A stretch of DNA of 36,714 nucleotides from Gemmatimonadota bacterium (lineage in GTDB: Bacteria > Gemmatimonadota > Gemmatimonadetes > Gemmatimonadales > Gemmatimonadaceae): the NCBI GenBank assembly GCA_025360995.1, contig JANYBD010000018.1, positions 1 to 36,714 on the forward strand, given 5' to 3'. Made by a program: the position numbers and the translations under genes. Positions 19,502-36,714 of the stretch are shown piece after piece (positions within the stretch are counted from its first letter, which is position 1; every line of letters begins with the position of its first letter). The notes beneath the pieces are model-generated. The model was not told where the DNA came from, searched no databases, and worked only from the letters and a program-made list of their open reading frames with translations.

Positions 19502-19503
19502 CG

Positions 19504-19923
19504 ATGCCCGTTACCTCTACGGACGACAAGAAGTTCAAGCCGATGCAAAAAAAGCAAATCGCGTATTTTGAAAAGCGGCTGCTCGAGGAGCGCCGGCGCG
19601 TGCTCAAGGAACTCGGACATTACGACGAAACGTTTGGCTCCACGCCGCAAGGCGCGGAAGGCGATCTGTCGTCGTACTCCTTCCATATGGCGGACCAGGG
19701 CACCGATGCCATGGAACGCGAGAAGGCCTTCTTGTTCGCCAGTCAAGAGGGACGGTTCCTTTGGCACATCGACGAAGCATTGCGGCGGTTGTATCGCACG
19801 CCGGAACGGTTCGGGCGCTGTCACCAGTGCGGCGGCGAAATCGCGTTTGAGCGTCTGGATGCACTCCCGCACGCGCGATTCTGCATTCAGTGCAAGCAAC
19901 GTGAGGAAGATGGCAAGAAGTAA
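19504..19923 (+). CDS. DksA/TraR-family C4 zinc-finger protein
   Basis: A 139-residue protein of the DksA/TraR family. Members bind the RNA polymerase secondary channel and adjust transcription, sometimes with ppGpp. A charged helical N-terminal half (about 12-45) is followed by acidic residues in Ala-Asp-Gln-Gly-Thr-Asp-Ala near 62-68. The zinc finger follows at about 105-130: Cys-His-Gln-Cys, 17 residues, then Cys-Ile-Gln-Cys. The start is ATG two bases after the ileS stop, with AAGGA upstream. The 3' end overlaps lspA by 14 bases. An ileS, dksA/traR, lspA order is common in several phyla. Whether it acts as a true DksA cannot be told from sequence. Confidence 0.9.
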   Translation: MPVTSTDDKKFKPMQKKQIAYFEKRLLEERRRVLKELGHYDETFGSTPQGAEGDLSSYSFHMADQGTDAMEREKAFLFASQEGRFLWHIDEALRRLYRTPERFGRCHQCGGEIAFERLDALPHARFCIQCKQREEDGKK

Positions 19924-21464: not shown

Positions 21465-21480
21465 AATTCTGGGTCGGCGC

Positions 21481-21921
21481 ATGCTGTTGTTCGGGGTCGG
21501 GGCACGCCTGTGTGCCTGCGATCTCGCGGTCGTACGCGAGATCGTACCATCACGGCCGGCCACGCGGTTGCCCGGGGCTCCGGAGTGGGTCCGCGGCCTG
21601 ATCAACCTGCGCGGGACGCTGGTAACGGTAATTGATTTGCGCGTGCGTTTCGGTACGGACCGACGCACCGACGGGGAGGAGCAGGGCGCGATGCCGTCGG
21701 GAGTTATTGTCGTCGTCAATGCGGGCGGTAAATCGTTTGGAATCGGGGTGAGTGAGGTGAAGGAAGTTCTTACGGTGGCCGAAGACGCGGTGGAATCGAT
21801 TGACCCGGAGCGGGCGGCCGGCGGTGCGGTCTGCGGGTTGGTGTATTTCGGAGCAACGCGGGAGTCCACAGCGCTGCTCTGCGATGTCGAAGAAATTGCG
21901 AAGCAAGCATTCGTGGTATAG
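21481..21921 (+). CDS. cheW: CheW-like coupling protein
   Basis: A 146-residue CheW-domain protein that would link receptors to CheA. The fold signatures are the N-terminal Leu-Leu-Phe-Gly-Val-Gly strand, Val-Val-Arg-Glu-Ile, Trp-Val-Arg-Gly-Leu-Ile-Asn-Leu-Arg-Gly near 38-47, and Val-Ile-Asp-Leu-Arg. The ATG at 21481 gives a standard domain but has no ribosome site. A TTG at 21439 has GGAG four bases upstream and would add 14 residues while overlapping rluD. I cannot decide between them. It is the first gene of the chemosensory run and precedes cheY by 44 bases. Confidence 0.87.
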   Translation: MLLFGVGARLCACDLAVVREIVPSRPATRLPGAPEWVRGLINLRGTLVTVIDLRVRFGTDRRTDGEEQGAMPSGVIVVVNAGGKSFGIGVSEVKEVLTVAEDAVESIDPERAAGGAVCGLVYFGATRESTALLCDVEEIAKQAFVV

Positions 21922-21965
21922 GCGATGCACAGTCTTATTTCCTTTTTCGTTTGACCGGGGGAACG

Positions 21966-22328
21966 GTGGCACAGACGGTACTCATTTGTGATGACGCGAT
22001 TTTCATGCGCACGATGGTGGGTGACATCTTGCAGCAAGCGGGATTCGAAGTCGTCGGCGAGGCCGAGACCGGGGCGCAAGCAGTCGAGAAATACAAACTG
22101 CTGCGCCCGGATCTTGTGACGATGGATATCGTGATGCCGGACATGGGCGGTATTGATGCGGTCCGCGAAATCACGAAGTTCGACCCGAATGCGAAAGTGC
22201 TGATGTGCAGCGCGATGGGGCAGCAGGCGCTAGTGGTCGAAGCGATCCAGGCAGGCGCGAAGGATTTTGTCGTCAAGCCCTTTCAGCCGAGCCGTGTGCT
22301 GGAGGCGGTGCAGCGGGTGCTTGGTTGA
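21966..22328 (+). CDS. cheY: CheY-type single-domain response regulator
   Basis: A stand-alone receiver domain of 120 residues. It has the acidic pair Asp9-Asp10, the phospho-acceptor Asp54 in Thr-Met-Asp-Ile-Val-Met-Pro, the switch residue Ser82, and Lys104 in Val-Val-Lys-Pro-Phe. It would be phosphorylated by the CheA encoded next and dephosphorylated by the CheC encoded after that. The GTG start follows a purine-rich GGGGGAA. The stop overlaps the cheA TTG start (TTGA). The output target is unknown: no flagellar switch gene is in view, and a pilus or polarity target is possible. Confidence 0.93.
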   Translation: MAQTVLICDDAIFMRTMVGDILQQAGFEVVGEAETGAQAVEKYKLLRPDLVTMDIVMPDMGGIDAVREITKFDPNAKVLMCSAMGQQALVVEAIQAGAKDFVVKPFQPSRVLEAVQRVLG

Positions 22329-24286
22329 GCCTCGACCTGCAACGCTACGCCGAGTTATTCCGCACCGAGAGCCGCGAACAGCTCTCGGCGATCAATCGCG
22401 CGCTGCTGCAACTCGAAGAAGGCGTCGAAACTGTCGAGCCGGTGGACGCAGTCTTCCGGGCGGTACACACCATGAAGGGGATGAGTGCGGCGATGGGGTA
22501 TCACGCCGTTGCCGAGTTTGCGCATGAGGTGGAGTCGCTGCTCGACCGGTTGCGGCGCGGCGAGCAGATGCTGTCGCCGGAGCTCATTGACGCACTTTTC
22601 GCGGCGGCGGATGCCTTAGAAGCCGGCGTCGATTCGGCAAATGAAGACGCGGTACAATCGCCGGGAATGGTCGATGCGCTCCAGCGATTGCACGATGTCG
22701 CCGGCGGAAGCGCGACGAGCGAATTCCGGGCGGTGCAGGTGACGGCGACGGGTGCGCTGGTGGATTTCAGCGTGTTGACCGTTGCCGATGCGCCCGGCGT
22801 ACTAATACGTGTACAACAGACGGCGAATGCGATGCTCCCGGGCGTTCGGGCGTTCATGGCCATCACCAAGTTGCGGGAGCTCGGCGACGTCACGGCGATT
22901 GAGCCCGCCATTGAAGTGATCCAATCTGCGGATCAGCCTCAGACGTTCACGTTGCGGCTCGTGACGACGGCCGGTGCGGCCGAGATTGAATCGGCCGTGC
23001 GTGCGGCTGGCGATGTCGAGGAGGTGGAAATCCGGATGGGCGATTCGGCTGTGGATTCCGGAGTGACGGCAGTGCCGGCGCGCCGATCGACCGACGTCGC
23101 CGGTCTCTTGGACGAAGGGGCATCGCAGCCGTTCACGCGGACGACCCGCCACGTGCGCATTGATCTGACGCGCCTCGACGCCCTGATGAACCTGATCGGC
23201 GAACTAGTCATCACTCGCGGCCGACTGTTACAGCTGACGGCGTCGATTGACGATGCGGCGCTCGAGGAGTCGATGCAGCAAGCGGCGCGACTCATTGGCG
23301 ACCTGCAAGCGGAAATTATGACGAGCCGCATGGTGCCAGTGGGCCAAGTATTCGACCGGTTCCCCCGCTTGGTGCGCGATGCGGCCCGACAAGTCGGGAA
23401 AGAAGTGCAGTTTGTCGTTGAAGGAAAAGAGATTGAGCTCGACCGCTCGTTGCTCGATGAAATTGGTGAGCCGCTCGTGCACTTGTTGCGGAACGCCATT
23501 GATCACGGCATCGAAACACCACAAGCGCGAGTGGCAGCAGGGAAGCCGCGCGTCGGGCGCCTGTTGCTCAGTGCCGCACGGGACCGCGCGGCGGTGCTCT
23601 TGCGGGTGACAGACGACGGACGGGGCATTGATCGAAGCGGCGTACTTACACGCGCCTTGACGCAAGGAATGGTCGACCCGGGCACCATGCAGCTCACTGA
23701 CGAGATGCTATTCCGGTGTATTTCGCAGCCCGGCTTTTCGATGGCGGATCGCGTGTCAGAATTATCGGGACGCGGTGTTGGTGTGGATGTCGTCGCGACC
23801 AAAGTGCGCGCACTCGGCGGTACGGTCGAATTGAAGACCGGGCAAGGCGAAGGCACCGCTATCACGATCCGACTTCCTGTGACGCTGGCGATTGTCCGCG
23901 CATTGCTGGCCCGTTCCGGTAGCGAGCGGTACGCGTTGCCGCTGACCCATGTGCGGGAAACACTCGAGTACGGTCCAGACGCGGTTCAGCGCATTAAAGG
24001 ACGCGACGTGTTGGTGCTACGCGACGAAGTCCTCCCGTTGCTGGATTTGCGCGATGTGGTGCGACAGTCGCCTGGAATGGAGCCGCACCGCGAGATCATC
24101 GTAATTGAACGCGGCGATCAGCGATCCGGCCTAGTGGTAGACGAACTGATTGGACAGCAGGATATCGTCGTGAAACAGTTCGACGCGCCGCGCGATGGAC
24201 TCGCATTGTTCAGTGGCGCGACCATTCTCGCTGATGGTGCGCCGGCGTTGATCGTGGACGTTGGCAGTCTTTTCCCGGGAGCTTGA
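22325..24286 (+). CDS. cheA: Chemotaxis histidine kinase CheA
   Basis: A 653-residue hybrid-free CheA with all five domains. P1 carries the phosphorylated His48 in Ala-Val-His-Thr-Met-Lys-Gly. A P2-type response-regulator docking domain lies at about 135-240. P3 dimerisation helices are near 275-340 (Leu-Asp-Ala-Leu-Met-Asn-Leu-Ile-Gly-Glu-Leu). The P4 ATPase domain has the N box Leu-Leu-Arg-Asn-Ala-Ile-Asp-His-Gly near 388-396, Asp-Asp-Gly-Arg-Gly-Ile near 430, and Gly-Arg-Gly-Val-Gly near 482. The P5 CheW-like domain runs from about 516 to the end. The start is TTG, overlapping the cheY stop by four bases; an ATG 120 bases upstream of it lies inside cheY and is rejected. Confidence 0.95.
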   Translation: MSLDLQRYAELFRTESREQLSAINRALLQLEEGVETVEPVDAVFRAVHTMKGMSAAMGYHAVAEFAHEVESLLDRLRRGEQMLSPELIDALFAAADALEAGVDSANEDAVQSPGMVDALQRLHDVAGGSATSEFRAVQVTATGALVDFSVLTVADAPGVLIRVQQTANAMLPGVRAFMAITKLRELGDVTAIEPAIEVIQSADQPQTFTLRLVTTAGAAEIESAVRAAGDVEEVEIRMGDSAVDSGVTAVPARRSTDVAGLLDEGASQPFTRTTRHVRIDLTRLDALMNLIGELVITRGRLLQLTASIDDAALEESMQQAARLIGDLQAEIMTSRMVPVGQVFDRFPRLVRDAARQVGKEVQFVVEGKEIELDRSLLDEIGEPLVHLLRNAIDHGIETPQARVAAGKPRVGRLLLSAARDRAAVLLRVTDDGRGIDRSGVLTRALTQGMVDPGTMQLTDEMLFRCISQPGFSMADRVSELSGRGVGVDVVATKVRALGGTVELKTGQGEGTAITIRLPVTLAIVRALLARSGSERYALPLTHVRETLEYGPDAVQRIKGRDVLVLRDEVLPLLDLRDVVRQSPGMEPHREIIVIERGDQRSGLVVDELIGQQDIVVKQFDAPRDGLALFSGATILADGAPALIVDVGSLFPGA

Positions 24287-24900
24287 ACGTGGACGACATC
24301 CGCAATTTGAAGTCGCTGCAACTTGACGCGCTGCGTGAAGTCTCCAACATGGGCGCTGGTCATGCGGCGACGGCGCTGAGTCAGATGACCGGTCAGAAGA
24401 TTATGATCAGCGTGCCGCATTTGACGATCTCGAAGCTCGAAGATGTGCCGAATCAGATCGAGGCACGCGAGGAACCCGTTGCCGCGGTCCTGATGAAGAT
24501 GCTCGGCGATCTCACGGGCCTAACGCTGCTGGTGTTTTCGCAACAGACCGCCCTGCAAGTAGCGGGATTGATGATGCGCAAACCCGCGACAACGCTCGGC
24601 GCGATCGAGCAGTCGGCGCTGAAAGAGGCCGGCAACATCCTTAGTGCAGCCTATCTCAACGCGCTGAGTGAATTCATGGGCATGATCCTGATGCCATCGC
24701 CGCCGACACTGGTAATTGATATGTCCGACGCGGTGCTCAATGAGACCTATCTCGAGGTCGCGCAACAGTCTGAATATGTGTTTTGTGTCGAGAGTGAATT
24801 CGAATTGATGGAAAGCAACGAGCGGCTTCGCGGATTTTTCCTGCTGATGCCGGACGTCGGAAGTCTGAATGCGATCCTGCGCGCGACGCGGGTCGCGTAA
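24283..24900 (+). CDS. cheC: CheY-P phosphatase CheC
   Basis: A 205-residue CheC/CheX/FliY-family phosphatase. Two Glu-X2-Asn active-site motifs are present: Glu19-Val-Ser-Asn22 and Glu115-Ala-Gly-Asn118. CheC removes phosphate from CheY-P and binds CheD, which is encoded downstream in the same cluster, so a feedback loop of the Bacillus or Thermotoga type is likely. The start is a TTG overlapping the cheA stop (TTGA); a GTG two codons later is an alternative. The gene is followed after eight bases by the large TPR gene. Confidence 0.92.
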   Translation: MNVDDIRNLKSLQLDALREVSNMGAGHAATALSQMTGQKIMISVPHLTISKLEDVPNQIEAREEPVAAVLMKMLGDLTGLTLLVFSQQTALQVAGLMMRKPATTLGAIEQSALKEAGNILSAAYLNALSEFMGMILMPSPPTLVIDMSDAVLNETYLEVAQQSEYVFCVESEFELMESNERLRGFFLLMPDVGSLNAILRATRVA

Positions 24901-24908
24901 CCACACCC

Positions 24909-27617
24909 ATGGCTGTCACGCTGGCCTCCGATCGCGACCGCGAGACGCTCAAGAGTTTTGTGCGGCGCATTGATCCGTCCGACGCCGGCGCGCACAATAA
25001 TTTGGGCGTGCTCTATTACAACAAAGGGCTGTACGAGGAAGCGGTGGCGGCGTTTACGAAAGCCCTGGAACTCGACGCAAAAATGCAGGTGGCGCAGCGC
25101 AACCTCGAAGTCGCATACTTTAACACGGGCTATTACGACAAGCGCGTGGCGCAGTTGCGCGAGAAGTTGCGTCATCGGGTGGACGACCGCGATGCCCGCT
25201 GGGAGTTGGGGCGGGCCTATGCCTTGCTCGGGCAGAACGAAGAAGCGATCGCCGAATTCACGGCACTGTTGCGACACCATCCCAACGATCTGGGTGCGAT
25301 TGTGCAATTGGGGTCGGCCGAGAAGGCCAGCGGGAGTCTGGCGTCGGCCCAACATTGGTTCGAGGACGCCATTCGGCTCGATCCCTCGAGTTCGGTGACA
25401 CATTTCTATTTGGGTGAGGTGCTCTACAATCAGGGGCGCCACGACGAATCGCTCGACGCGCTCAAGCGGGCCATCGAACTTAATCCGGAAAATCCGGATG
25501 CGCATTTTCTGCTGAGTTTTGTCTATGGGGATACAGGCCGTCACGCCGAAGCTGCGGCGGCGAGCAAGCGCGCGGTACAGCTCAATCCGACGCTATCACA
25601 CGCGCACGCGAATCTTTCCCTCGACCAGTACAATCCTCAAAAATACGAAGAGTTGCTGCCGGGCCGTCAGGAACAACGGGCCCAGCGTCAGATGCAGGTG
25701 GCGGAAGGTGAGCATCTCGCGCACTACAATCTCGGGTTGGCGTTTCGGCAAAAGGGGTACTATGCCGAAGCGCAGCGTGAGTACCGGTTGGCCCTCGATC
25801 GCGGTGAAGATCGCGGGCTCGTGCTTCAGGCGATGGCCGAGGTGCATCTGTTGCGCCAGGATTCCGCCGCGGCGATCGAGCTCTACGATCAATTGATCGT
25901 CGAGAAGCCGGACAGCCCGAAACTCTGGAACGAACGCGGCGTCGCACTGCACCAGAATGGCAGCTACGCCGAGGCAGCGGAGAGTTATCGTCGGGCGCTC
26001 GCGGCGGATCCGCGGTATGCGATTGCCCACAACAATCTCGGGGTGGCGTTGTACCACGCCGGCGAGCGCGAGCAGGCGGTGGACGCGTTTCGCGCAGCAC
26101 TGTCTGCGAATCCATCGTTCGCGAAAGCCCGGCTGAATCTGGCATTACTGCTCGGCAAGAGTCACCGTTTTCAATTGGCCCTTGAGGCCTATCGTCAAGT
26201 GTTGGTCACGGAGGCCGCGAATCCGACCGCGTGGAATGGGATCGGCGTGGTCCTCGCCGAACTGCGCAAGTTTGACGATGCCCGCAATGCCTTCGCACGG
26301 GCAATTCAAGGACGCCCGGATTTTGCCGAAGCGCACTACAACCTGAGCTTCACGCTGTCGAACCTCGGCGATTTCGAAGGCGCGTTGCGTGAGACGAAGC
26401 GGGCGCTGGAGCTTGATCCGTTTTATGTGCCGCAGAAATTTTCCCTGGCAATTGATCTCGAGTACGAAGATCCGGATTTGTCGGTGGTGCCCGACCTCGG
26501 CGGCGAAAAGCGCATGAGTGGTGAGGTCGATGCGTTTTCATTCGACCCGCGATTGCTCGACACGCTGTTTAGCGAACTGGCACCGCCGCCCGAACCCTCG
26601 CCGCAAGTGATGGTCGAGGCGGATGCGTTCACGATGGCTGGAGATTATCTCACCAAAGGGCTGTACGATCGGGCGCTCGCTGAGACCAGTCGGGCACTCG
26701 CCCGCGGTGGGAATGTTGCGGAAGGGCACGCGATGCTTGGCGACATTTTGTCCCGCCAGGGAGCGTACGGTGATGCGCTGGAGAAATATCGCGCCGCGCT
26801 GCTCTCGCAACCCAATCATTTGCGCGCGCAACGCGGTGAAGCACAAGCGCTGTTGATGCTGGGCCGCGGCGCCGAGGCGCGCGAGGCAGCCGAGCGCCTC
26901 CTTGAGGCCGCTCCGGACGATGTGGACGCCACGATGCTCGTCGCGACCTGCAGGTTTGAGTCTGGCGATCCCGCAGCGGCGCTCGACGCGTTGGATATCG
27001 CGCGCCGCCTCGCGCCGGCGCGCGCGGATGTGTTGCGCTGGATTGGCAATATCACGCGATCGCTCGGTGATGTGGACGGTGCGATTGCCGCTTATCGCCA
27101 TGCGTTGCAACTCGATGGAGATTTTGCGGCCGTGCGATTTGACCTCGCCGCGCTATTGATGCAGCGGGAGATGTGGGCGGACGCGGAGCAGGAACTGGTC
27201 GCAGCCCTCGATGCGGTGCCGACGTATACGGAAGCGACGTTGCAACTCACAACACTCCGGCGCATGACGGGGCGTCATCTCGACGCGGTGCACATGCTCG
27301 TGGACCTGTTGCAGCGCGACCCGTACAGTTTCGACGGCCTGATTGCGCTCGGCGAGACGCTACTCGAACTCGGACGGGCCAGTGACGCGGGCGTCGCATT
27401 CCGGCGCGTACTGGCATTCGATCCTGAACATGTCGGCGCCATTTTTTACGATGGTATGCTGCTGGCGCGCCAGAAGCGCTATCGCGAAGCGATCGCGCAG
27501 TGGGAACGTGTGGTGGATCTGGAACCGGCCGGCGAATATGGACGTCGGGCGCGTCGTGAGTCCCGAACGGCGAGCGACTTGCTCAAAGTGTTTGGCGAAC
27601 GGTTCGAGGAGAGCTGA
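24909..27617 (+). CDS. Large tetratricopeptide-repeat protein
   Basis: A 902-residue protein made almost wholly of TPR helices. The repeats begin at about residue 20 (Asn-Asn-Leu-Gly-Val-Leu-Tyr-Tyr) and run to about 515. A less regular linker with a Pro-Glu-Pro stretch (about 515-575) separates them from a second block (575-895). There is no signal peptide, membrane segment or enzyme domain. TPR arrays act as docking scaffolds. Position between cheC and a DUF4388 gene, with ATG eight bases after cheC and a GTG-started gene two bases later, implies that it serves the chemosensory complex, perhaps linking the kinase array to MglA. The partner is unknown. Confidence 0.88.
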   Translation: MAVTLASDRDRETLKSFVRRIDPSDAGAHNNLGVLYYNKGLYEEAVAAFTKALELDAKMQVAQRNLEVAYFNTGYYDKRVAQLREKLRHRVDDRDARWELGRAYALLGQNEEAIAEFTALLRHHPNDLGAIVQLGSAEKASGSLASAQHWFEDAIRLDPSSSVTHFYLGEVLYNQGRHDESLDALKRAIELNPENPDAHFLLSFVYGDTGRHAEAAAASKRAVQLNPTLSHAHANLSLDQYNPQKYEELLPGRQEQRAQRQMQVAEGEHLAHYNLGLAFRQKGYYAEAQREYRLALDRGEDRGLVLQAMAEVHLLRQDSAAAIELYDQLIVEKPDSPKLWNERGVALHQNGSYAEAAESYRRALAADPRYAIAHNNLGVALYHAGEREQAVDAFRAALSANPSFAKARLNLALLLGKSHRFQLALEAYRQVLVTEAANPTAWNGIGVVLAELRKFDDARNAFARAIQGRPDFAEAHYNLSFTLSNLGDFEGALRETKRALELDPFYVPQKFSLAIDLEYEDPDLSVVPDLGGEKRMSGEVDAFSFDPRLLDTLFSELAPPPEPSPQVMVEADAFTMAGDYLTKGLYDRALAETSRALARGGNVAEGHAMLGDILSRQGAYGDALEKYRAALLSQPNHLRAQRGEAQALLMLGRGAEAREAAERLLEAAPDDVDATMLVATCRFESGDPAAALDALDIARRLAPARADVLRWIGNITRSLGDVDGAIAAYRHALQLDGDFAAVRFDLAALLMQREMWADAEQELVAALDAVPTYTEATLQLTTLRRMTGRHLDAVHMLVDLLQRDPYSFDGLIALGETLLELGRASDAGVAFRRVLAFDPEHVGAIFYDGMLLARQKRYREAIAQWERVVDLEPAGEYGRRARRESRTASDLLKVFGERFEES

Positions 27618-27619
27618 CG

Positions 27620-28660
27620 GTGGCGATCGAAGGCCCGCTGCGCGAACTCGGCATCCATGACGTCTTCCAGCTACTCGACCTGAGCCGGAAGACGGGGACG
27701 CTGGCGGTCAGTTCCGAGCTTCGCGACAACGAAGGCACGGTGCTGTTTGAGAAAGGCCGCGTCGTGGCCGCCACTATTAAAAGCAATCCGCATCGCATTG
27801 GCGAACTGTTGCTGCGGTCCGGCAAAGTCACAGAAGGAGACGTAATCAAAGCGCGTTCGGCGCAGTCGGAACACGGCGATACGCGGCGCCTCGGGGAGAT
27901 TCTCCTCGAGATGGGAGCAATTTCCCCGAAAGAGCTGGAGCGTCAGATTCGTCTGCAAATCGAAGCGGTCGTCTTCGAATTATTGTCGTGGCGCGAAGGG
28001 TTTTTTCGCTACGAGGAAGGCGACATCGGTGAGCGCGCGATGATTGAGATTTCAACCGAATCGCTTCTGATGGAGGGGGCGCGTCGCATTGATGAATGGT
28101 CGCGCATCGCCGATCGGGTCCCGAGTCTGGCGGCGGTACCGGTGCTGGCGCCGGTGCAAGAGGACCATGCGCCGATGTTGGATTTGTTGCCTCACGAATG
28201 GGAAGTTCTGGGCATGATCGATGGTGCGAACGACTTGCGGGCACTCGCCGCGATGCTGTCGCGCAGTGAATTCGACGTCGCAAAAATTGTGTATGGATTG
28301 GTCAGTACGGGTGTGGTCGAGTTAAAAGTGCCGACGGAATTCGCCGATCGCGTCACCACCCGCGTGCCCACGCCAATTATGCCGATGCGCGCCGTGTCTG
28401 ACCGCGCGATTCCGTCGCCGGTGCAATTGCCGCCCGTGCCCCAAGAGCCGTCGCGCGACGAACCACCCACGGCGGAACAGGTGGACGATCTCGAGCGCGG
28501 TTATCGCGCCTTGAAGCGCGGCGATTTTGACGGAGCCGTCAAAGCGTGGGCGCAACTGCTGCAGACCCATCCGCGTCATGAATTGGCCGAGAAGATTCGC
28601 GGCGGTCTCGAGTCGGCGGCCCGTTTGCGTAGCCTTATGGAGGCGCGCTATGGTGACTGA
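27620..28660 (+). CDS. DUF4388 (PATAN-like) protein with paired RLG motifs
   Basis: A 346-residue protein. The N-terminus (about 1-60) is a DUF4388 domain, a module related to the PATAN domain and often found beside signalling and motility genes. Two 24-residue motifs of the form Arg-(Leu/Ile)-Gly...Gln follow at 59-82 and 90-113; they resemble the half-motifs of MshEN c-di-GMP-binding domains, although the spacing is much shorter. A helical middle domain (about 130-240), a Pro-rich linker and a C-terminal helical hairpin like one TPR (about 290-335) complete it. It is a paralogue of the N-terminal half of the protein at 32860. The start is GTG; its 3' end overlaps the next gene by 11 bases. 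The role is unknown. Confidence 0.82.
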   Translation: MAIEGPLRELGIHDVFQLLDLSRKTGTLAVSSELRDNEGTVLFEKGRVVAATIKSNPHRIGELLLRSGKVTEGDVIKARSAQSEHGDTRRLGEILLEMGAISPKELERQIRLQIEAVVFELLSWREGFFRYEEGDIGERAMIEISTESLLMEGARRIDEWSRIADRVPSLAAVPVLAPVQEDHAPMLDLLPHEWEVLGMIDGANDLRALAAMLSRSEFDVAKIVYGLVSTGVVELKVPTEFADRVTTRVPTPIMPMRAVSDRAIPSPVQLPPVPQEPSRDEPPTAEQVDDLERGYRALKRGDFDGAVKAWAQLLQTHPRHELAEKIRGGLESAARLRSLMEARYGD

Positions 28661-29516
28661 CGACATTCGCGCTCTCAGCGAGGCGCTGGCCGCCGACCCG
28701 TCGAGCACCGTATTTCTTCAACTGGGAGAAGCGCTGCGTCGTCAGGGCCAAGTTGAACTCGCGTACCGCGTCGCGACGCGTGGTCTTGAACGGCATTCAC
28801 AGCGTTTTGAGGTGCACGATCTGGTGGCCCGCATCGCGGTGGACCGCGGCGATTTTGCGCGTGCCCGCACGGAATGGGAAACGGTACTCCTGCTGGCTCC
28901 AGGGCACAGTGGCGCACAGAAGGGTCTTGGATTTCTCTGTTTTCAACAAGGCGAACTCGCCGCTGCGTCGCGCTATCTGGGCGCGGCGCTAGAGGCGAGT
29001 CCTGGCGACCAGTCGTTGTCGGCGGCGCTTGATACCGTGCGGGCCGCAATCGCCGACGAACAGCGTGCACCATGGGAACGTCCGACGGCGGCGCTACCGG
29101 CGACGGTCGGTGCACTGGAGTCGCCGGCCCGTCCGTTCGCGGCACAACCAGCAGATGCCCGCACACTCTTTGCCGAAGTGCTTGGTGATGCGCCACAGGC
29201 GGCGCTGTTGATTGACGCGGACGGCTATGTCATGGCGGGCGATTATGTCACAGCGGATGGACATGACCTTGGCGCGGACCTCGGCGCCCAATTGTCTGGC
29301 GTGAGCGACGAAGCCTCACGCGCCATGCGGCACCTTGGACTCGGCAAATGGAAGCAGATTGTATTTGAATCGGAGGCCGCCAGCGTAGCGATGGCGCCCT
29401 GTGGGGAAGGTGTGCTGTTGGTTGCGGCACCACGCACCGTGCCGCTCGGCTTTGTGCGACGGCTATTGGAGCGCTCGCTGGACCGAGCCCGCCGGTGGTT
29501 GGAGAGTGGGACGTGA
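28650..29516 (+). CDS. TPR plus roadblock/LC7 domain protein
   Basis: A 288-residue protein with TPR-like helices at about 5-135, a Pro/Ala-rich linker to 168, and a C-terminal roadblock/LC7 domain. The latter is recognised by Ala-Ala-Leu-Leu-Ile-Asp-Ala-Asp-Gly-Tyr-Val near 189-199 and a terminal helix. Roadblock proteins dimerise and regulate small Ras-like GTPases; in Myxococcus, MglB is the GAP for MglA. The start ATG lies inside the previous gene, with GGAGG 7 bases upstream. The stop overlaps the next roadblock gene by four bases (GTGA). It may bridge the TPR scaffold to the MglA encoded downstream. Confidence 0.82.
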   Translation: MVTDDIRALSEALAADPSSTVFLQLGEALRRQGQVELAYRVATRGLERHSQRFEVHDLVARIAVDRGDFARARTEWETVLLLAPGHSGAQKGLGFLCFQQGELAAASRYLGAALEASPGDQSLSAALDTVRAAIADEQRAPWERPTAALPATVGALESPARPFAAQPADARTLFAEVLGDAPQAALLIDADGYVMAGDYVTADGHDLGADLGAQLSGVSDEASRAMRHLGLGKWKQIVFESEAASVAMAPCGEGVLLVAAPRTVPLGFVRRLLERSLDRARRWLESGT

Positions 29517-29860
29517 ACAGTCCATTTACCCAAACGCTCTCGGCGCTCATACGCCATCGGGGGGTCACCGGGTGCATGGTCGTAGGGGAATCCGACGGAA
29601 TTATCGTGGACTCCAGTTTGCAGATTGGTGTCAACGGCAGCGCCGTTGCCGCCCTCACGGCGTCGCTGTATCGCAAGGCGCAGCGGGCGTCCACGGCGGC
29701 GGGATTTGGGATGACCGGATTTTTCGAATTAGTTGCGGAAGGCGGCCGGGTGTGCGCGGCCGGACGGAACGAAATGGTTTTGGTGATAGTGGCCGGTGCA
29801 AAAGTGAATGTGGGAATCATTCGCATGGAAATGCTCAAGGCGCTGGAGTCGTTCCCGTGA
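29513..29860 (+). CDS. Roadblock/LC7 domain protein (MglB-like)
   Basis: A single roadblock/LC7 domain of 115 residues. The first strand Gly-Cys-Met-Val-Val-Gly-Glu-Ser-Asp-Gly is near 21-30, a helix Ala-Val-Ala-Ala-Leu-Thr-Ala-Ser-Leu follows, and a terminal helix ends the chain. Size and context suggest an MglB-like partner of MglA, but GAP activity cannot be read from the sequence. The start is GTG, overlapping the upstream stop by four bases, and the stop overlaps the next start in the same way, so three roadblock genes are translationally coupled in a row. Confidence 0.82.
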   Translation: MNSPFTQTLSALIRHRGVTGCMVVGESDGIIVDSSLQIGVNGSAVAALTASLYRKAQRASTAAGFGMTGFFELVAEGGRVCAAGRNEMVLVIVAGAKVNVGIIRMEMLKALESFP

Positions 29861-30327
29861 GATTGACGGTAGCGGCATCGTGGGTCGAATCGCCGCTCAA
29901 GGCATTCGTCGACGACGGGCGTGTGCGGCTCGCCATCCTGCTGCATTCGAGCGGGCAGGTGCTTGGACAGTTTGGGTTCGCGCGTTCGGTGGATGTGATG
30001 ACAGCGTGTGCATTGGCCGCGGCGACGGCCGCGAGTTCGGCCGAGTTGGGCCGGCTGATTGATGGCCGACCGTTTAACGCGATGCACTATGTCGGAGTCA
30101 CGCAGCAAATTTTTCTTGCCCCGGTGCCTATTGAGGGGGGCAAGCTGGTGTTGCTCGCCGTGTTCGACGAAGACAGTTCGCTGGGCCTGGTGCAGCTATT
30201 CTTTCAGGAGTTTTGTGCGACAGTCAAAGCAATTGCTCCGGCGGCGAGCGCCGGAGAACCCGCACTCGATGCAGATTTTGAACGCGAGCTCAACCGTAAT
30301 TTGGCAGTGATGTTCGGGCGCGCCTGA
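29857..30327 (+). CDS. Roadblock/LC7 domain protein
   Basis: A 156-residue protein with a roadblock/LC7-like core at about 20-125: Ala-Ile-Leu-Leu-His-Ser-Ser-Gly-Gln-Val-Leu, a Ser-Ala-Glu-Leu-Gly-Arg helix, and Val-Leu-Leu-Ala-Val-Phe-Asp-Glu-Asp-Ser-Ser-Leu-Gly. The C-terminal extension (about 125-156) is acidic then basic. The GTG start overlaps the previous stop. It lies 39 bases before mglA and is probably a second MglA regulator or adaptor. A longer reading starting inside the upstream genes is an artefact. Confidence 0.8.
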   Translation: MRLTVAASWVESPLKAFVDDGRVRLAILLHSSGQVLGQFGFARSVDVMTACALAAATAASSAELGRLIDGRPFNAMHYVGVTQQIFLAPVPIEGGKLVLLAVFDEDSSLGLVQLFFQEFCATVKAIAPAASAGEPALDADFERELNRNLAVMFGRA

Positions 30328-30366: not shown

Positions 30367-30972
30367 GTGTCACTCGTCAACTACGCCACACGCGAAATCA
30401 CCTGCAAGATCGTCTACTACGGCCCGGGTCGGTCGGGAAAGACGACGAACCTTCATTACATTTACGGGCAGGTGCCGGCCGAGCGGAAAGGGAAGATGGT
30501 GTCGCTCGCCACCCAAACCGACCGCACGTTGTTCTTTGATTTCCTACCGATTGATCTCGGAATAATTTCCGGCTTTACGACGCGATTTCAGCTCTATACA
30601 GTTCCAGGTCAGGTCTACTACCAGACGACGCGCCGTTTGGTGTTGCAGGGCGCCGATGGCGTGGTGTTTGTGGCCGACAGTCAGGCACGCCAGCTTGGAG
30701 AGAATGTGGAGTCGATGCAGGACTTGCATGCGAATTTGGTGAACTACGACGTCGATGTTCGGGAAATGCCAATGGTCATTCAATACAACAAGCAGGATTT
30801 GCCGGGTGATCTCATCATGACTGTTCCCGAGTTGGAGGATCATTTGAACTTCCGCAATGTGCCTTCGTTTTCGGCCGATGCTTTACACGGGCCAGGGGTG
30901 TTTGAAACGTTGCGGGCAATCTCGGAACAGGTGTTGCGCAAGTTGAGTCCAACGAGCGGGAGCAACGGGTAA
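30367..30972 (+). CDS. mglA: MglA-type Ras-like polarity GTPase
   Basis: A 201-residue small GTPase. The P loop Gly19-Pro-Gly-Arg-Ser-Gly-Lys25-Thr-Thr is present. The switch II segment is Thr-Val-Pro-Gly-Gln82; MglA proteins lack the usual Asp here, and Gln82 corresponds to the residue needed for GTP hydrolysis in Myxococcus MglA. Asn141-Lys-Gln-Asp144 is the guanine-specificity motif. MglA sets the leading pole and drives gliding or type IV pilus motility in other bacteria. The start is GTG with no clear ribosome site. It sits between three roadblock genes and the tandem AAA+ gene, one base before the latter's start. Confidence 0.93.
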   Translation: MSLVNYATREITCKIVYYGPGRSGKTTNLHYIYGQVPAERKGKMVSLATQTDRTLFFDFLPIDLGIISGFTTRFQLYTVPGQVYYQTTRRLVLQGADGVVFVADSQARQLGENVESMQDLHANLVNYDVDVREMPMVIQYNKQDLPGDLIMTVPELEDHLNFRNVPSFSADALHGPGVFETLRAISEQVLRKLSPTSGSNG

Positions 30973-30973
30973 C

Positions 30974-32860
30974 GTGCAGCTCGATCAGCGACTCAGGTTC
31001 GATAGCTACGTCGTCGGCGCGGGGAACCGCCTGGCCGTCGCCGCGGCGCGCGCGGTCGCCGAGTCGCCCGGATCCGTATACAATCCGCTATTCATCTACG
31101 GCGGCACCGGACTCGGCAAAACGCATTTGCTGGGGGGGATAGGCCGACTCGCTGAGGCGTTGCATGAAAATCTTGAAATCGAATACCTCTCGCTCGAAGA
31201 ATTCGTGGACCAGTTGCACGCCGCGATATCCGCGGGGCAGTTGGAGGCATTCTCCAGCCGATACGAGCGTGTTGGACTGCTCCTGATTGATGATGTGCAG
31301 TTTCTCACGGGTCGACGTGAGACGCAGGCTGCATTGTTGAAGTTGTTTGAACGGATGCAGCGTGCCGGCGGGCAGATTGTGTTGACCAGTGACAGGCCGC
31401 CGTCGGGAATTTCCGATGTGGATGAGCGGCTTATCAGCCGCCTGTCCGGCGGCCTGATCGTCGACGTGACTGTGCCGGATTACGAGACCCGAGTGGCGAT
31501 TCTGAGGGCCAACTGTGAGGAGCGGCGCATTGTGTTCCGTGGCGGCGTGCTCGAGGAACTGGCGCGATTTAGTTTTGTGAATGTTCGCGAATTACAGGGC
31601 GCGCTGAACCGGCTTGTCGCACACCAGGCCGCCGGAATCGAGGAGACACCGGCTCCGGCTCCGGCGCCTGCCGACCGGCCGACCGGCGAGTTCGAGAGCT
31701 TTCTTTCCGAAGTCACCTCGGTGGTACAACAGCACGTGGAGTCGTGGCAGGCCCGGCTCACCGAAGCGGCGGAATACTGGAAGGGTGAAGGGTATCGCAC
31801 GGCGGTACTCGAACGGGCCGTGTCACTGCCGAAGTCCCCGGACGTCGCGGGACTGCTCGCCACGTTCAGCGCTGCCGTCGAACATTTGCGCGATCTCGAA
31901 AAGACGGCGTGTTCGGTGGATCCGTCGCTGGGAAGCAATTCGGTATTTCGCGATCCGGAGAGGATGGCCCAGGCCGAGGACCTCGTGGAGCGGGCGCTGG
32001 CCGGGGAAACGCCGCCCAATGGTCCGAGCACCGAATTTGATCGCGCGTCCTACGACGTTGGTTCGTCGAATCAAGTGGCAGTGCATGCGGCAGACGCGAT
32101 CGTCGCTGAGCCGGGCGTCAAGTACAACCCGCTGGTACTGCATGGTCCCAGCGGAGTGGGCAAGACACATCTCGCGAATGCCATCGGCAATGCGTTGGCC
32201 AAAGGAAATGGCACTCCGGTGACCGTTGCGTGCGTGCATGCGCAAAAATTTATAGACGAATTAATTTCAGCGATTCAAGGCGGTACGGTCGAGCGGTGGC
32301 GGGCCCGCTATCGCTCGGTCGGGGCGCTGATCATTGACGACGTGCAGTTCGTGGCAGGAAAGGAGCGCACGCAGGATGAGTTTTTCCTGCTGTTTAACTC
32401 CTTGGTGGGTGCGAATAAACAGATCGTGCTGACGAGTGACCGTGCGCCCGCCGAGATCCCGGATCTGGAAGCGCGGTTGCGCTCACGCTTCGAGGGCGGA
32501 TTGGTCGTGCCGATTCAGTCACCGGACCGGACGCTACGCGAACGGTTGTTCACCCGCTTCCTCACCGCCGCGGGACGTGAGGCGGACGACGCGCTCCTTG
32601 GGGTGCTCAGTGAACCGTCGGTGCAGAGCGTTCGCGAGATCATCGGTACAGTGAATCGTCTCGGTGCCGCCGCCGAGGCCAGCGGCACGCCGCTCACGGC
32701 GCAACTGGCGCGAGGCGAACTTGGGATGGCCACGCCGTTTTCCGGTGGTACAGCGGTCGCAACGGCCGGTGCCACCGCCGATCCGGTATTTCTCAACAAT
32801 GAAAAAATTGTGTGGGAGTGGCCGGACGTTACCGCGCGCGTGATTGAGGATTTCCGCTAG
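30974..32860 (+). CDS. Tandem DnaA-type AAA+ ATPase without DNA-binding domain
   Basis: A 628-residue protein with two DnaA-like AAA+ modules. Module 1 (about 6-215) has Walker A Gly-Gly-Thr-Gly-Leu-Gly-Lys49-Thr-His, Walker B Leu-Leu-Ile-Asp-Asp-Val-Gln-Phe (103-110), sensor 1 Thr-Ser-Asp-Arg-Pro, and the sensor 2 segment Val-Arg-Glu-Leu-Gln-Gly-Ala. Module 2 (about 355-565) has Gly391-Pro-Ser-Gly-Val-Gly-Lys397-Thr-His, Ile-Ile-Asp-Asp-Val-Gln-Phe, and Lys-Glu-Arg-Thr-Gln, very close to true DnaA. Arg-Leu-X-Ser-Arg (box VII-type) occurs in both. A helical linker (about 220-350) joins them. No domain IV helix-turn-helix follows; the tail ends in a Trp-Glu-Trp-Pro segment. It is therefore unlikely to be a replication initiator. 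Context suggests a motility or polarity role. GTG start. Confidence 0.85.
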   Translation: MQLDQRLRFDSYVVGAGNRLAVAAARAVAESPGSVYNPLFIYGGTGLGKTHLLGGIGRLAEALHENLEIEYLSLEEFVDQLHAAISAGQLEAFSSRYERVGLLLIDDVQFLTGRRETQAALLKLFERMQRAGGQIVLTSDRPPSGISDVDERLISRLSGGLIVDVTVPDYETRVAILRANCEERRIVFRGGVLEELARFSFVNVRELQGALNRLVAHQAAGIEETPAPAPAPADRPTGEFESFLSEVTSVVQQHVESWQARLTEAAEYWKGEGYRTAVLERAVSLPKSPDVAGLLATFSAAVEHLRDLEKTACSVDPSLGSNSVFRDPERMAQAEDLVERALAGETPPNGPSTEFDRASYDVGSSNQVAVHAADAIVAEPGVKYNPLVLHGPSGVGKTHLANAIGNALAKGNGTPVTVACVHAQKFIDELISAIQGGTVERWRARYRSVGALIIDDVQFVAGKERTQDEFFLLFNSLVGANKQIVLTSDRAPAEIPDLEARLRSRFEGGLVVPIQSPDRTLRERLFTRFLTAAGREADDALLGVLSEPSVQSVREIIGTVNRLGAAAEASGTPLTAQLARGELGMATPFSGGTAVATAGATADPVFLNNEKIVWEWPDVTARVIEDFR

Positions 32861-34479
32861 TGGCCATCAAGGGCAGTCTCAAGGAGGCCAGTCTTCCGGA
32901 CGTGTTGCAGCTGTTGTCCATGGGCAAAAAATCCGGATGCCTATCGGTGACCCATCGCAATAATTTCGGATCGATCTTTTTCGACAAAGGGAAGATCAGC
33001 TATGCGGCGATCGTCAACCGCCGCGACCGGCTCGGCGACATTCTGACAAAAAGCGGTGCAATTACCGTTGAACAACTGGATGTGGCGATCGAAGCCCAAG
33101 GAAAAGAACGCGATAAACGGCTCGGTGAAATTCTCGTGGGCCTTGGGATCATCTCGAAGGAGGAGTTGCATAGACAGATTCGAATTCAGATTGAAGAAGC
33201 CGTCTATTTTCTGTTTACGTGGACCCAGGGCACGTTCAATTTCGAAGCGGACATCCGGCCGGAAGAACAAGACTTTCTCGTCCAGATCAATCCCGAGTCG
33301 TTGCTGCTGGAAGGGGCGCGACGGGTGGACGAGTGGAGTCTGATTGAAAAGAAAATACCGTCATTCGATATCGTATTCGACGTGGACCGCAAACGGCTCG
33401 AGGCGAGCGGCGCCAAGCTGACGCGTGAACAGGAAATCCTCCTGCCGCTGATTGATGGGCGGCGTGATGTTGGCGCGTTGATCGAAGATTCAGGATTTGT
33501 CGAATTCGAAGTCGGCAAAGCGCTCTATGGCCTGTCGAACGCGGGATTTCTGCATAAAGTTGGCAAGACGCGCGCACCGGACGTCATGGCTCCCGATGCG
33601 CGCATCGAAGAGCACCGCAATCTCGGTGTCGCGTTCTATAAGACCGGTATGCTCGACGAGGCGGAGCGGGAATTCCGGCGCGTGGCTGAACTGCGGCCCG
33701 GCGACCAGCAATCGCGGTTTTATCTCGGGCTTGCGCATATCCGGCTGGGCCAGTGGGAAGAGGCGGTTGCAGATTTCGAAGCCGTCACCGCATCACGAAC
33801 CGCGGGCGCTGCCGCGTATCACAATCTCGCATTCGCATTCGAACGTGTGGGTGCCTTTGCGAAAGCGCACGACGCGTTGCGCGAAGCCGTCAAGCGCGGC
33901 GGCGATCGGGACCCGCGGGTCCTTACATCGCTCGGCGTGCTCGCGTTGCGCGAAGGGGACTTGGCGTCGGCAGAAGCGTCATTTGTAGCCGCGCGGTCAT
34001 TGGTCACCGCGCGCGCGCCATCGCCCGCCTGGTTCCATTATGCGGCGCTGGCGGCGGCGCTTGCCGGCCGCACCGACGACGCGATTGCGACCCTGCTCGA
34101 AGGGACGCACGCGTATCCGCACTCTGCGGTGCTCTACAACAATCTGGCGGTCGCGCTGGAGCGCAAAGGCAAGTTTGACGATGCGATGATTGCGGCAGAG
34201 CATGGAGTAGTGGAAGACACCGGTATCGCCCAGTTGCACAAGAACATTGGCGACGCGCACTATCGCTCGGGCCGATTCGACGACGCGTTTGAAGCCTATC
34301 AGCGTGCGGTAAAGTTCAATGACGTCCTCGGCCCCGATATGTGGCAAAAACTCGGGAACATTAAGCTCAGGCGGCGGGAACGCGACGACGCGATCCGCTT
34401 TTGGGAGCGCTCTTTAGCGCTCGATCCGGACAATCCGATCGTCCGGCAGAATATCGAGGCGGCGAAGGAGTTACCGTGA
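32860..34479 (+). CDS. DUF4388-TPR protein with paired RLG motifs
   Basis: A 539-residue protein. The N-terminal DUF4388 domain (about 1-55) is followed by two 24-residue RLG...Q motifs at 57-80 and 87-110. A helical domain similar to that of the protein at 27620 comes next (about 115-240). The C-terminal half is a TPR array of roughly eight repeats (about 245-535). The GTG start overlaps the TAG stop of the tandem AAA+ gene by one base, and the stop overlaps cheR by four bases (GTGA), so it is embedded in the operon. It is probably a scaffold or sensor adaptor; binding of a nucleotide second messenger is only a guess from the motifs. Confidence 0.84.
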   Translation: MAIKGSLKEASLPDVLQLLSMGKKSGCLSVTHRNNFGSIFFDKGKISYAAIVNRRDRLGDILTKSGAITVEQLDVAIEAQGKERDKRLGEILVGLGIISKEELHRQIRIQIEEAVYFLFTWTQGTFNFEADIRPEEQDFLVQINPESLLLEGARRVDEWSLIEKKIPSFDIVFDVDRKRLEASGAKLTREQEILLPLIDGRRDVGALIEDSGFVEFEVGKALYGLSNAGFLHKVGKTRAPDVMAPDARIEEHRNLGVAFYKTGMLDEAEREFRRVAELRPGDQQSRFYLGLAHIRLGQWEEAVADFEAVTASRTAGAAAYHNLAFAFERVGAFAKAHDALREAVKRGGDRDPRVLTSLGVLALREGDLASAEASFVAARSLVTARAPSPAWFHYAALAAALAGRTDDAIATLLEGTHAYPHSAVLYNNLAVALERKGKFDDAMIAAEHGVVEDTGIAQLHKNIGDAHYRSGRFDDAFEAYQRAVKFNDVLGPDMWQKLGNIKLRRRERDDAIRFWERSLALDPDNPIVRQNIEAAKELP

Positions 34480-35306
34480 GCGCCGCGGCCGACGACGCCG
34501 AGTCGTTCATGGCGCTGACGGAGAAGATTTCCCGAGAGCGAGGATTCGGCACTGCGAGCTACAAAGACGGATGCTTGCGGCGCCGCATCGCCGTGCGTAT
34601 GCGGGCGAACCGCGTGGACGACTACACGGCATACAGCCACCTGCTGGACAATGACCCATTGGAATTCGATCGCCTGCTCGACGCCCTAACTATCAATGTC
34701 ACGAAGTTGTTTCGGAACAATGAGGTGTGGGATGCCGTCGCGGCGTCGGTGCTGCCTGAGCTATGGGCAGGGGAGTCCATCAGAATTCAGAACTGGGTTG
34801 CCGGGTGCGCGTCCGGAGAAGAAGCGTACACGCTCGCCGCGTTGTGGCACCGCCACGTGACGACTCATCCAGCCTCCGGCGCGCCAGACCGAGTGCGGAT
34901 CACGGCGAGCGATATCGATAGCCGATCGTTGATCGCGGCAGCGGAAGGCGCGTTCGGCCCGGAAACATTAACGGAGACGCCAGATAGTATCCGTGGCCGA
35001 TATTTCGCGCCCGTGGATACGGACGGGCGTGCGCATGCGGCGCCGGAGCTGCGCGAAATGATCCGGTTTGAACGGCGCGATTTACTGTCCGAGCTGCCGC
35101 CAGCCGGTGCGCTCCATCTGATTACGTGCCGCAACGTCATTATCTATTTCGACCGCCCGTCGCAAGAAGCGTTGATGAAGCGTTTTCACCATGCTCTCGC
35201 GGTGGGCGGCTTTCTTGTATTGGGGAAGGTCGAGACGTTACTGGGTCCGTCGCGACTGCTGTTCGACGTGGTGGATCAGCGCAACCGCATTTTCCGCCGC
35301 GCGTGA
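34476..35306 (+). CDS. cheR: Chemotaxis protein methyltransferase CheR
   Basis: A 276-residue S-adenosylmethionine-dependent methyltransferase that would methylate Glu residues of chemoreceptors. The N-terminal all-helical domain includes Tyr-Lys-Asp-Gly-Cys-Leu-Arg-Arg-Arg (about 27-35). The Asn-Val-Thr-Lys-Leu-Phe-Arg-Asn segment is near 74-81. The SAM-binding segment is Trp-Val-Ala-Gly-Cys-Ala-Ser-Gly-Glu-Glu near 108-117, and Cys-Arg-Asn-Val-Ile-Ile-Tyr-Phe near 218-225 is the CheR signature. The start is GTG overlapping the previous stop; the stop overlaps cheD (GTGA). No receptor gene is within view, so its substrate is elsewhere. Confidence 0.94.
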   Translation: MSAAADDAESFMALTEKISRERGFGTASYKDGCLRRRIAVRMRANRVDDYTAYSHLLDNDPLEFDRLLDALTINVTKLFRNNEVWDAVAASVLPELWAGESIRIQNWVAGCASGEEAYTLAALWHRHVTTHPASGAPDRVRITASDIDSRSLIAAAEGAFGPETLTETPDSIRGRYFAPVDTDGRAHAAPELREMIRFERRDLLSELPPAGALHLITCRNVIIYFDRPSQEALMKRFHHALAVGGFLVLGKVETLLGPSRLLFDVVDQRNRIFRRA

Positions 35307-35779
35307 CGGATCATCGCGTGCGTATCGCCCATCACGCCGTGAGGCGCGGCAGCGGCCGGTTGGTGACGGTCGGGCTCGGGTCGTGCGTGGCCATCGCGCT
35401 GCACGACGCATTGGCACGTGTCGGTGGGTTGGCGCACGTATTGCTGCCGCAGGTTCTCGGAGAGCAAAGCGAGCCGAACCGGGCAAAATTCGCATCGACG
35501 GCCGTTCCATTGCTGATTGAAGAAATGCGGGCGCTTGGAGCCTCCGGCCCGTTCGTCGCGAAGCTCGCCGGCGGCGCTTCACTGTTTGGTCCACTGCTGG
35601 CGATGAGCGGGACCGTGGGCGCGCGGAACATCGAGGCCGCACGCGCCGCGCTGCAGGACGCGCGGGTGCCATTAATCGGCGAGGACGTCGGCGGAGTTGC
35701 CGGGCGCACGGTCACGCTGGACGTGGCCACCGGCGCATTTCTGGTGAAGACTGTACGGGGAGGAGAACGTGCCATCTAA
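35303..35779 (+). CDS. cheD: Chemoreceptor glutamine deamidase CheD
   Basis: A 158-residue CheD. The catalytic Cys is in Gly-Leu-Gly-Ser-Cys28-Val-Ala and the His is in Gly-Leu-Ala-His45-Val-Leu-Leu-Pro. Lys-Leu-Ala-Gly-Gly-Ala and Asn-Ile-Glu-Ala segments follow, as in the family. CheD deamidates receptor Gln residues and binds CheC, stimulating its phosphatase activity. With cheC upstream in the same cluster, both roles are plausible. The GTG start overlaps the cheR stop by four bases, and the 3' end overlaps the cheB start by 11 bases. Confidence 0.93.
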   Translation: MTDHRVRIAHHAVRRGSGRLVTVGLGSCVAIALHDALARVGGLAHVLLPQVLGEQSEPNRAKFASTAVPLLIEEMRALGASGPFVAKLAGGASLFGPLLAMSGTVGARNIEAARAALQDARVPLIGEDVGGVAGRTVTLDVATGAFLVKTVRGGERAI

Positions 35780-36714
35780 GCCGCGTACAGTACTGGTCGT
35801 GGATGACAGTGCGCTGATTCGCACGATGGTGCGTGAAGTGATCGCCGAGTTTGGCGACTTTGTTGTCGTTGGCACGGCGCGTGACGGTGCAGACGCGTTG
35901 CGGCAGGTGCACGAACTGAACCCCGATATCGTCACGCTCGACATTGAGATGCCTGGAATGGACGGCATTGCCACATTGCGCGAACTGATGCGTGATGCGC
36001 CGCGTCCAGTCGTGATGCTCAGTGGCGCCGAAACCCGTGGTGATGTGGACCTGACGCTCCTCGCGTTGGAACTCGGCGCGGTGGATTTTGTGCGGAAGCC
36101 GAATGCGGCGGGCACACAGCAGGTGCGGCAAGTCGCCGAACGTCTGCATGAAGCGTTGCGGGCGGCCGCGATCGTCAATCTGCGTGGTGCGACCGCAGTA
36201 GCCGGGATGCCGGCGATCAGGCGGACGCCGGCCGTGTTGCGCCGAGTGACGCCGGACACGCGGGCGGCGCGAGCGGCCGTCGCAATTGCCAGTAGCACCG
36301 GGGGGCCGCGGGCGCTTATGGAAGTGATACCAGGTTTCGGTCGCGAACTGGATGCCGCGGTTCTGATTGCGCAGCATATGCCGCCAGGATTTACCGCCGG
36401 ACTCGCGCGCCGCCTGAACGACGAGTCGGTGCTCGCCGTGACAGAGGCCCGCGATGGAGAACCGCTGTTGCCGAATCACGTATATGTTGCCCCCGGCGGA
36501 TGGCACATGCGTGTGCGCAGTGTCGAGCGCAGTGGAACGGACAGTGGAACGGACAGTGGAACGGACAGTGGAACGCACGGTGGAGCGCACGGCGCGAGGA
36601 TCGTGCTGGACGACTCGCCGACCGTTTGGGGCGTGCGACCGGCCGCTGATCTCCTGTTTGTGTCGGTAGCAGCACTGTTCGGATCGGCGTCTGTTGGTGT
36701 GGTCCTCACCGGAA
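35769..36714 (+). CDS. cheB: Protein-glutamate methylesterase CheB, 3' end outside window
   Basis: The frame from GTG 35769 (after GGGGAGGAG) is open to the window edge, giving 315 residues. The N-terminal receiver domain has Asp58 as phospho-acceptor in Leu-Asp-Ile-Glu-Met-Pro. The C-terminal methylesterase domain begins near 170. Its nucleophile is Ser176 in Ala-Ser-Ser-Thr-Gly-Gly-Pro and its His203 is in Ala-Gln-His-Met-Pro-Pro-Gly-Phe. The catalytic Asp should lie just beyond the window, after Val-Val-Leu-Thr-Gly. CheB removes methyl groups from receptors and balances CheR. A tandem repeat of Ser-Gly-Thr-Asp units (residues 255-274) interrupts the esterase domain after Val-Tyr-Val-Ala-Pro-Gly-Gly-Trp-His. 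It overlaps cheD by 11 bases. Confidence 0.93.
   Translation, partial: MPSKPRTVLVVDDSALIRTMVREVIAEFGDFVVVGTARDGADALRQVHELNPDIVTLDIEMPGMDGIATLRELMRDAPRPVVMLSGAETRGDVDLTLLALELGAVDFVRKPNAAGTQQVRQVAERLHEALRAAAIVNLRGATAVAGMPAIRRTPAVLRRVTPDTRAARAAVAIASSTGGPRALMEVIPGFGRELDAAVLIAQHMPPGFTAGLARRLNDESVLAVTEARDGEPLLPNHVYVAPGGWHMRVRSVERSGTDSGTDSGTDSGTHGGAHGARIVLDDSPTVWGVRPAADLLFVSVAALFGSASVGVVLTG
36531..36590 (+). repeat. 12-bp tandem repeat inside cheB, five units
   Basis: The unit AGTGGAACGGAC occurs three times exactly (36531-36566). A fourth copy differs at one base (36567-36578) and a fifth is more diverged (36579-36590). The unit is four codons, so copy-number change keeps the frame and adds or removes Ser-Gly-Thr-Asp. 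It encodes a flexible acidic loop in the CheB esterase domain. Confidence 0.95.

Follow-up and report, generated by a model that had tools for sequence, protein, structure and literature searches.

To our knowledge, the roles described for DnaA-clade ATPases are confined to replication and its control, the loading of helicases, and transposition. Domain III of DnaA assembles in an ATP-dependent manner through the arginine of box VII. The other described systems that come close to the locus reported here are the MglA/roadblock/PATAN neighbourhoods of Wuichet and Sogaard-Andersen 2014 (PMC4316618) and, in M. xanthus, the pilus polarity network MglA-SgmX-FrzS-SopA (PMC11580455), which bring together an MglA-type GTPase, roadblock, long TPR and PATAN proteins and chemosensory genes. 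PATAN genes have been noted near MglA/MglB (PMC4316618), and M. xanthus PATAN proteins co-occur with SgmX (PMC11580455). In Synechocystis, PATAN proteins have been reported to bind PilB, the motor of the pilus (PMC10519157, PMC9090330), and an alpha-helical insertion in the PATAN domain is known from Makarova et al. 2006, as cited in PMC7690835. MshEN receptors, namely MshE and the N-domains of PilB/PilF, carry two 24-residue motifs of the form RLGxxLxxxGxLxxxxLxxxLxxQ, and tandem motifs of such kind bind c-di-GMP (PMC5013675).

The window analysed here, meaning the whole stretch of 36,714 nucleotides, contains a run of chemosensory, PATAN, roadblock and MglA genes with a double DnaA-type AAA+ protein, called dDnaA below, in its midst:

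21412–21921, + strand: CheW
21951–22328, + strand: single-domain response regulator (CheY-like)
22205–24286, + strand: CheA kinase
24283–24900, + strand: CheC/CheX-type phosphatase
24909–27617, + strand: 902-aa TPR protein, SgmX-like in build only
27620–28660, + strand: second PATAN protein, with an MshEN-like motif that falls just short of the cut-off of 38 (36.1 bits)
28650–29516, + strand: TPR + roadblock protein
29513–29860, + strand: roadblock/LC7 protein (MglB-like)
29857–30327, + strand: roadblock-like protein (Robl_LC7 match below threshold: 12.9 bits, cut-off 23)
30367–30972, + strand: MglA-type small GTPase
30974–32860, + strand: dDnaA, double DnaA-type AAA+ protein, 628 aa (open reading frame, Pfam/NCBIfam, AlphaFold model)
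32860–34479, + strand: PATAN (DUF4388)-TPR protein, 539 aa, the constant downstream partner
34401–35306, + strand: CheR
35126–35779, + strand: CheD
35769–36713, + strand: CheB, truncated by the contig end

This order, CheW-CheY-CheA-CheC-TPR-PATAN-TPR/Robl-Robl-Robl-MglA-dDnaA-PATAN/TPR-CheR-CheD-CheB, is the usual run in most Gemmatimonadales. MglA, roadblock and PATAN genes stand together as they do in the MglA-PATAN polarity/motility neighbourhoods, an association absent from the loci of family f5. The window differs from the systems of PMC4316618 and PMC11580455 in its DnaA-type ATPase, of which we found no description in the parts of those papers available to us, and in having one PATAN protein with TPRs and a full MshEN insert. 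Nor did searches of the open-access literature for DnaA-like proteins associated with MglA or PATAN bring up a publication on this protein. What appears new, and is new to us, is the DnaA-derived component with its pairing, in an MglA/PATAN/Che setting of an already known kind.

Two further observations concern the neighbourhood. The 902-aa TPR protein scored above cut-off for the MamA (magnetosome) and PilW models, probably as an effect of its repeats. A conserved PNP-IleRS-LspA-pseudouridine synthase run precedes the operon (window 15399–21464, with DivIVA further upstream) and stays in place when the motility genes are lost.

Anatomy and conservation of dDnaA

The dDnaA gene begins with a GTG at 30974, one base past the mglA stop codon (TAA, 30970–30972), as a sequence-only reading of this DNA had pointed out, and its TAG stop shares one base with the GTG start of the downstream PATAN-TPR gene. 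The same reading assigned both halves of the protein to the DnaA clade from their Walker A and B, sensor 1, arginine box and sensor 2 segments. Pfam Bac_DnaA indeed matched twice (E 2e-51 and 3.6e-50; 175 and 170.9 bits against a cut-off of 23), and the residue counts given below agree. The closest solved structures to the modules are those of B. subtilis DnaA domain III (8bv3/8btg); matches in PADLOC and PHROGs were generic P-loop or DnaC-like only. The protein is built as follows:

30974–31648, + strand: AAA1, DnaA domain-III-like ATPase, aa 1–225 (Pfam; catalytic residues kept phylum-wide)
31685–32011, + strand: conserved helical linker domain, aa ~238–346, ~110 aa (helices in the AlphaFold model)
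32030–32743, + strand: AAA2, second DnaA domain-III-like ATPase, aa ~353–590 (intact in this protein, decayed or absent in other families)
32798–32857, + strand: C-terminal motif E-K-I-V-W-E-W-P...R-x-I-E, predicted to be disordered, a proposed docking peptide

The AlphaFold model contains two domain-III folds, a linker of long helices (239–342) and disorder at 225–242 and 589–628; its mean pLDDT is 84 and its pTM 0.48, so the mutual placing of the two halves is unsure. The modules share with DnaA domain III the AAA+ fold, Walker A and B, sensor 1, the box VII arginine finger, sensor 2 and a helical insertion between the Walker motifs. Unlike DnaA, dDnaA has no domain I, II or IV: it begins straight at domain III, domain IV gives way to a new helical linker followed by another domain III and a short tail bearing a new motif, and the genomic company is different. 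No Bac_DnaA_C (domain IV) match was obtained with Pfam, and the window held no DnaA box TTWTNCACA against 1.25 expected, in keeping with the earlier claim on both points. A DNA-binding domain hidden in the linker or tail, which had been named as evidence that would tell against a new use of the fold, was found neither by Pfam nor in the structure model nor by inspection, the linker being made of long helices and the tail disordered. As a candidate for a known domain, the linker matched no Pfam family. In further contrast to DnaA, dDnaA is not the sole replication-initiator-type gene of its genome, which has a separate true dnaA on contig C129 (477-aa open frame, 235 bits). Because dDnaA scored 484.5 bits over two stretches with the NCBIfam DnaA equivalog model (cut-off 343.9), automatic pipelines may misname it as dnaA, and annotations should be read with this in mind.

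Residues were compared in 72 AAA1 and 56 AAA2 domains. The Walker A lysine and the Walker B aspartate were kept in all 72 AAA1 domains, the sensor-1 aspartate and the sensor-2 arginine in 68/72 each, and the box VII arginines in 67/72 and 68/72 (arginine finger 68/72), a retention of 93–100% for the catalytic residues. AAA2 retained the Walker A lysine in 47/56, the arginine finger in 55/56 and the sensor-2 arginine in 40/56, and the Lys-Glu-Arg-Thr segment remarked on earlier in the second half was confirmed in this set of 56 domains. Across the family, AAA1 with its intact catalytic set, the linker and the C-terminal motif persist. AAA1 is the sole module found in all lineages; the order to which the window belongs has an intact AAA2, whereas in families f4 and f5 the module is degenerate, its Walker motifs lost, and f6 and f9 lack it, their proteins carrying the tail motif directly after the linker. 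The tail is near-invariant: although predicted to be disordered, it has the motif E[KRN]x4W in 57 of 61 distinct tails, single-AAA forms included, with the consensus E-K-x-V-W-x-W-P. The double-headed design proposed for the protein therefore holds for the window but not for the family. Two heads are not essential: AAA2 has decayed in some families, and forms with a single AAA module occur; double-headedness marks some lineages and does not define the family. In a tree of 77 domains, AAA1 (together with a diverged solo copy from genome G015), AAA2 and DnaA formed three separate groups, so that each dDnaA module stands apart from DnaA. This tree would fit a single ancient origin of the two-module form, followed by loss or decay of AAA2.

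The dDnaA–PATAN-TPR gene pair

dDnaA was found in 27 of 41 close relatives, the window's genome included, and a model of the linker matched 236 of 395 Gemmatimonadota genomes. All named homologues carrying the linker belong to Gemmatimonadota; none of the 27 genomes of other phyla among the matches listed had dDnaA, which is thin evidence from a set that included no Myxococcota.

A PATAN-TPR gene follows dDnaA in 50/50 informative loci. Among 52 loci, its start lies within 150 bp in 46 and at 169 bp in one (L044), it is frame-shifted in one (L054) and fused in frame in one (L148), and three loci lie at contig ends, of which L063 shows the PATAN-TPR start; some of the 52 may stem from a genome sampled twice, as L041 and L146 certainly do, which makes the pairing count not fully independent. 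In the fused locus (G233; L148 2735–5887), AAA1, linker, AAA2, tail, PATAN, MshEN and TPR are encoded by a single 1051-codon reading frame. This fusion was seen in one draft genome, and a possible GTG start with stops in both other frames at the junction means that a one-base sequence error could mimic it.

The link to MglA drawn by the sequence-only reading stood in part. MglA lies directly upstream of dDnaA in 29 of the 52 loci, the f5 loci lack it, and the constant partner is the PATAN-TPR protein, which that reading did not name. In the f5 loci (one named Longimicrobiales), the MglA, roadblock and Che genes, CheA included, are gone, and the pair persists alone, adjoining IleRS and pseudouridine-synthase genes. 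A second, diverged MglA occurs elsewhere in f5 genomes, so dDnaA may still contact MglA there.

Wherever enough sequence was available, dDnaA was accompanied by PATAN-TPR. The opposite case, PATAN-TPR without dDnaA, is found in three lineages. One is formed by the genera g5, g7 and g22, a single clade for the five analysed in the tree, in which a search with an insert-less query found PATAN-TPR without the MshEN insert in 19 genomes, none of them linker-positive; the others are G024 and G032, whose PATAN-TPR has the insert. The regulator can thus work without the ATPase, and the dependence runs from the ATPase to the regulator and not vice versa, as expected for an ATPase acting on PATAN-TPR. 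The partnership is well supported, and the two proteins may also bind each other physically.

Some loci showed other states. G005 and G154 look like deletion remnants. In G015, from the window's genus, a strongly diverged single DnaA-like AAA+ gene (L145 9389–10237, 283-codon open frame) directly precedes an intact PATAN-TPR gene, and the Che/MglA genes are lost from the locus.

The PATAN domain of the partner contains an insertion with the following feature:

33028–33189, + strand: tandem MshEN-type c-di-GMP motif inside the PATAN domain, aa 57–80 and 87–110

The insert scored 50.7 bits with NCBIfam NF053729 (MshE-type motif, cut-off 38) and matched solved MshE (PDB 5htl, 2.6e-6) and the PilF/PilB N-domains. 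A motif scan identified two 24-residue motifs, RLGDILTKSGAITVEQLDVAIEAQ and RLGEILVGLGIISKEELHRQIRIQ, in the tandem arrangement of MshEN receptors, from which the partner differs in that the motif is inserted in PATAN, the spacer is 6 instead of 5, and no pilus ATPase is present in the same protein. The MshEN character of the PATAN insertion here is our own reading, and these motifs suggest that the partner may bind c-di-GMP. GGDEF proteins occurred in 22/22 genomes searched, and some genomes with dDnaA have degraded MshEN motifs (L046, L065, L077). The second PATAN protein is also MshEN-like (motif 27794–27946), so both PATAN domains of the operon carry the motif. A strict coupling of dDnaA to the MshEN insert at one point seemed perfect, with PATAN-TPR orthologues cleanly lacking the 53-aa insertion (L139–L143, L161–L165) all in genomes without dDnaA. 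However, all 19 insert-less genomes come from g5/g7/g22, and in G024 and G032 the insert occurs although dDnaA is absent, so the coupling is at most suggestive.

PilT occurs whether or not a genome has the system, and it is retained where the whole system has been lost; pilus co-occurrence therefore does not discriminate. G077 (L050), which has MglA, a single-AAA dDnaA and PATAN-TPR, gave no PilT match at E ≤ 1e-60 and no CheA match, a combination that is odd for a pilus output.

Proposed function and alternatives

With moderate confidence, we propose that dDnaA is a DnaA-derived ATPase which has left replication and serves as the dedicated partner of the PATAN-MshEN-TPR protein in a c-di-GMP- and MglA-linked pathway, most likely controlling type IV pili. 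AAA1 would bind and hydrolyse ATP and assemble head-to-tail via the arginine finger, as in DnaA, and the conserved W-x-W-P tail would dock the PATAN-TPR protein. The ATP state of AAA1, and of AAA2 where intact, would toggle PATAN-TPR between clustered and free forms, and this clustering would in turn decide whether PATAN-TPR engages the pilus motor or other partners with TPRs, while c-di-GMP at the MshEN insert would act as a second input. The output would be control over the place or timing of type IV pilus activity, probably at a pole. What the data show directly is the two DnaA-type ATPase modules, the lost DNA-binding domains, the conserved AAA1 residues and tail, the gene pairing and the single fusion; binding between the proteins, assembly, tail docking, c-di-GMP binding and the pilus output are inferred.

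A continued role in replication seems improbable to us. dDnaA might co-assemble with DnaA in an Hda-like or decoy fashion, or bind single-stranded DNA through AAA2, and so link replication with the state of surface motility and c-di-GMP. In favour of this, the two halves are unmistakably DnaA domain III, and at the positions that in DnaA contact single-stranded DNA, V211 and R245 (PMC12122000), AAA2 is DnaA-like, with Ile/Val at the V211 position in 54/56 domains and Lys-Glu-Arg-Thr/Ser in most. AAA1, the module present in all lineages, has lost these contacts, however (usually His at the V211 position; Glu at the R245 position in 58/72), and AAA2 is the module that has decayed in f4/f5 and vanished in f6/f9. 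Hda/HdaA resembles dDnaA as a DnaA-related AAA+ protein without domain IV, but dDnaA has two modules, reaches 144.7 bits with the Hda model (NCBIfam TIGR03420, cut-off 194.8) and is not found near replication genes; the N-termini of homologues (MQLDQRLRF, MTTTLNPRF, MELNPRF) share, by inspection, no Hda-type sliding-clamp motif. NCBIfam models of DnaC/DnaI/IstB loaders all scored below their own cut-offs for dDnaA. The lack of domains I and IV, and of a DnaA box in the window, also speaks against this role. A location of homologues mostly near replication genes was to have counted against a use of the fold outside replication; in every locus read, the neighbours were instead motility/signalling or housekeeping genes, with no replication gene beside dDnaA, and the suggestion of such a new use has held up.

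The sequence-only reading had tentatively envisaged an ATP-driven assembly or clamp for the polarity or kinase array. A clamp or scaffold that serves the CheA array, or MglA itself, agrees with the position of the gene inside the Che-MglA-PATAN run in most Gemmatimonadales and with the frequency of MglA immediately upstream, yet we consider it very improbable. Five f5 genomes (G092, G278, G267, G137 and G328; 95–100% complete), G177 and G077 keep the pair with no CheA H-kinase_dim match genome-wide, in a search that can overlook diverged copies, since it missed the domain in G031 despite a CheA-like gene in that locus. With CheA missing from genomes that keep dDnaA, the kinase-array clamp was rejected as a general role, and the operon MglA is missing from the f5 loci. 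There is also little probability that dDnaA is no assembly switch and instead acts as a general AAA+ chaperone or unfoldase, remodelling PATAN-TPR or taking it apart. Its constant pairing with one substrate-like TPR/PATAN protein and its disordered, conserved tail fit an adaptor–substrate relation, but DnaA-clade AAA+ proteins generally work by nucleotide-gated assembly and not by threading.

On a wider scale it is possible, if doubtful, that the DnaA ATPase was exapted in the ancestry of Gemmatimonadota into an ATP-gated assembly and now arranges a pilus-polarity scaffold that senses c-di-GMP, working as a filament or oligomer on protein and not on DNA. If this is true, the DnaA assembly mechanism would be adaptable to protein scaffolds, by way of a phylum-wide, dedicated ATPase, and the dDnaA and PATAN-TPR genes would be a concrete pair with which to study the control of cell polarity and pilus activity by ATPases.
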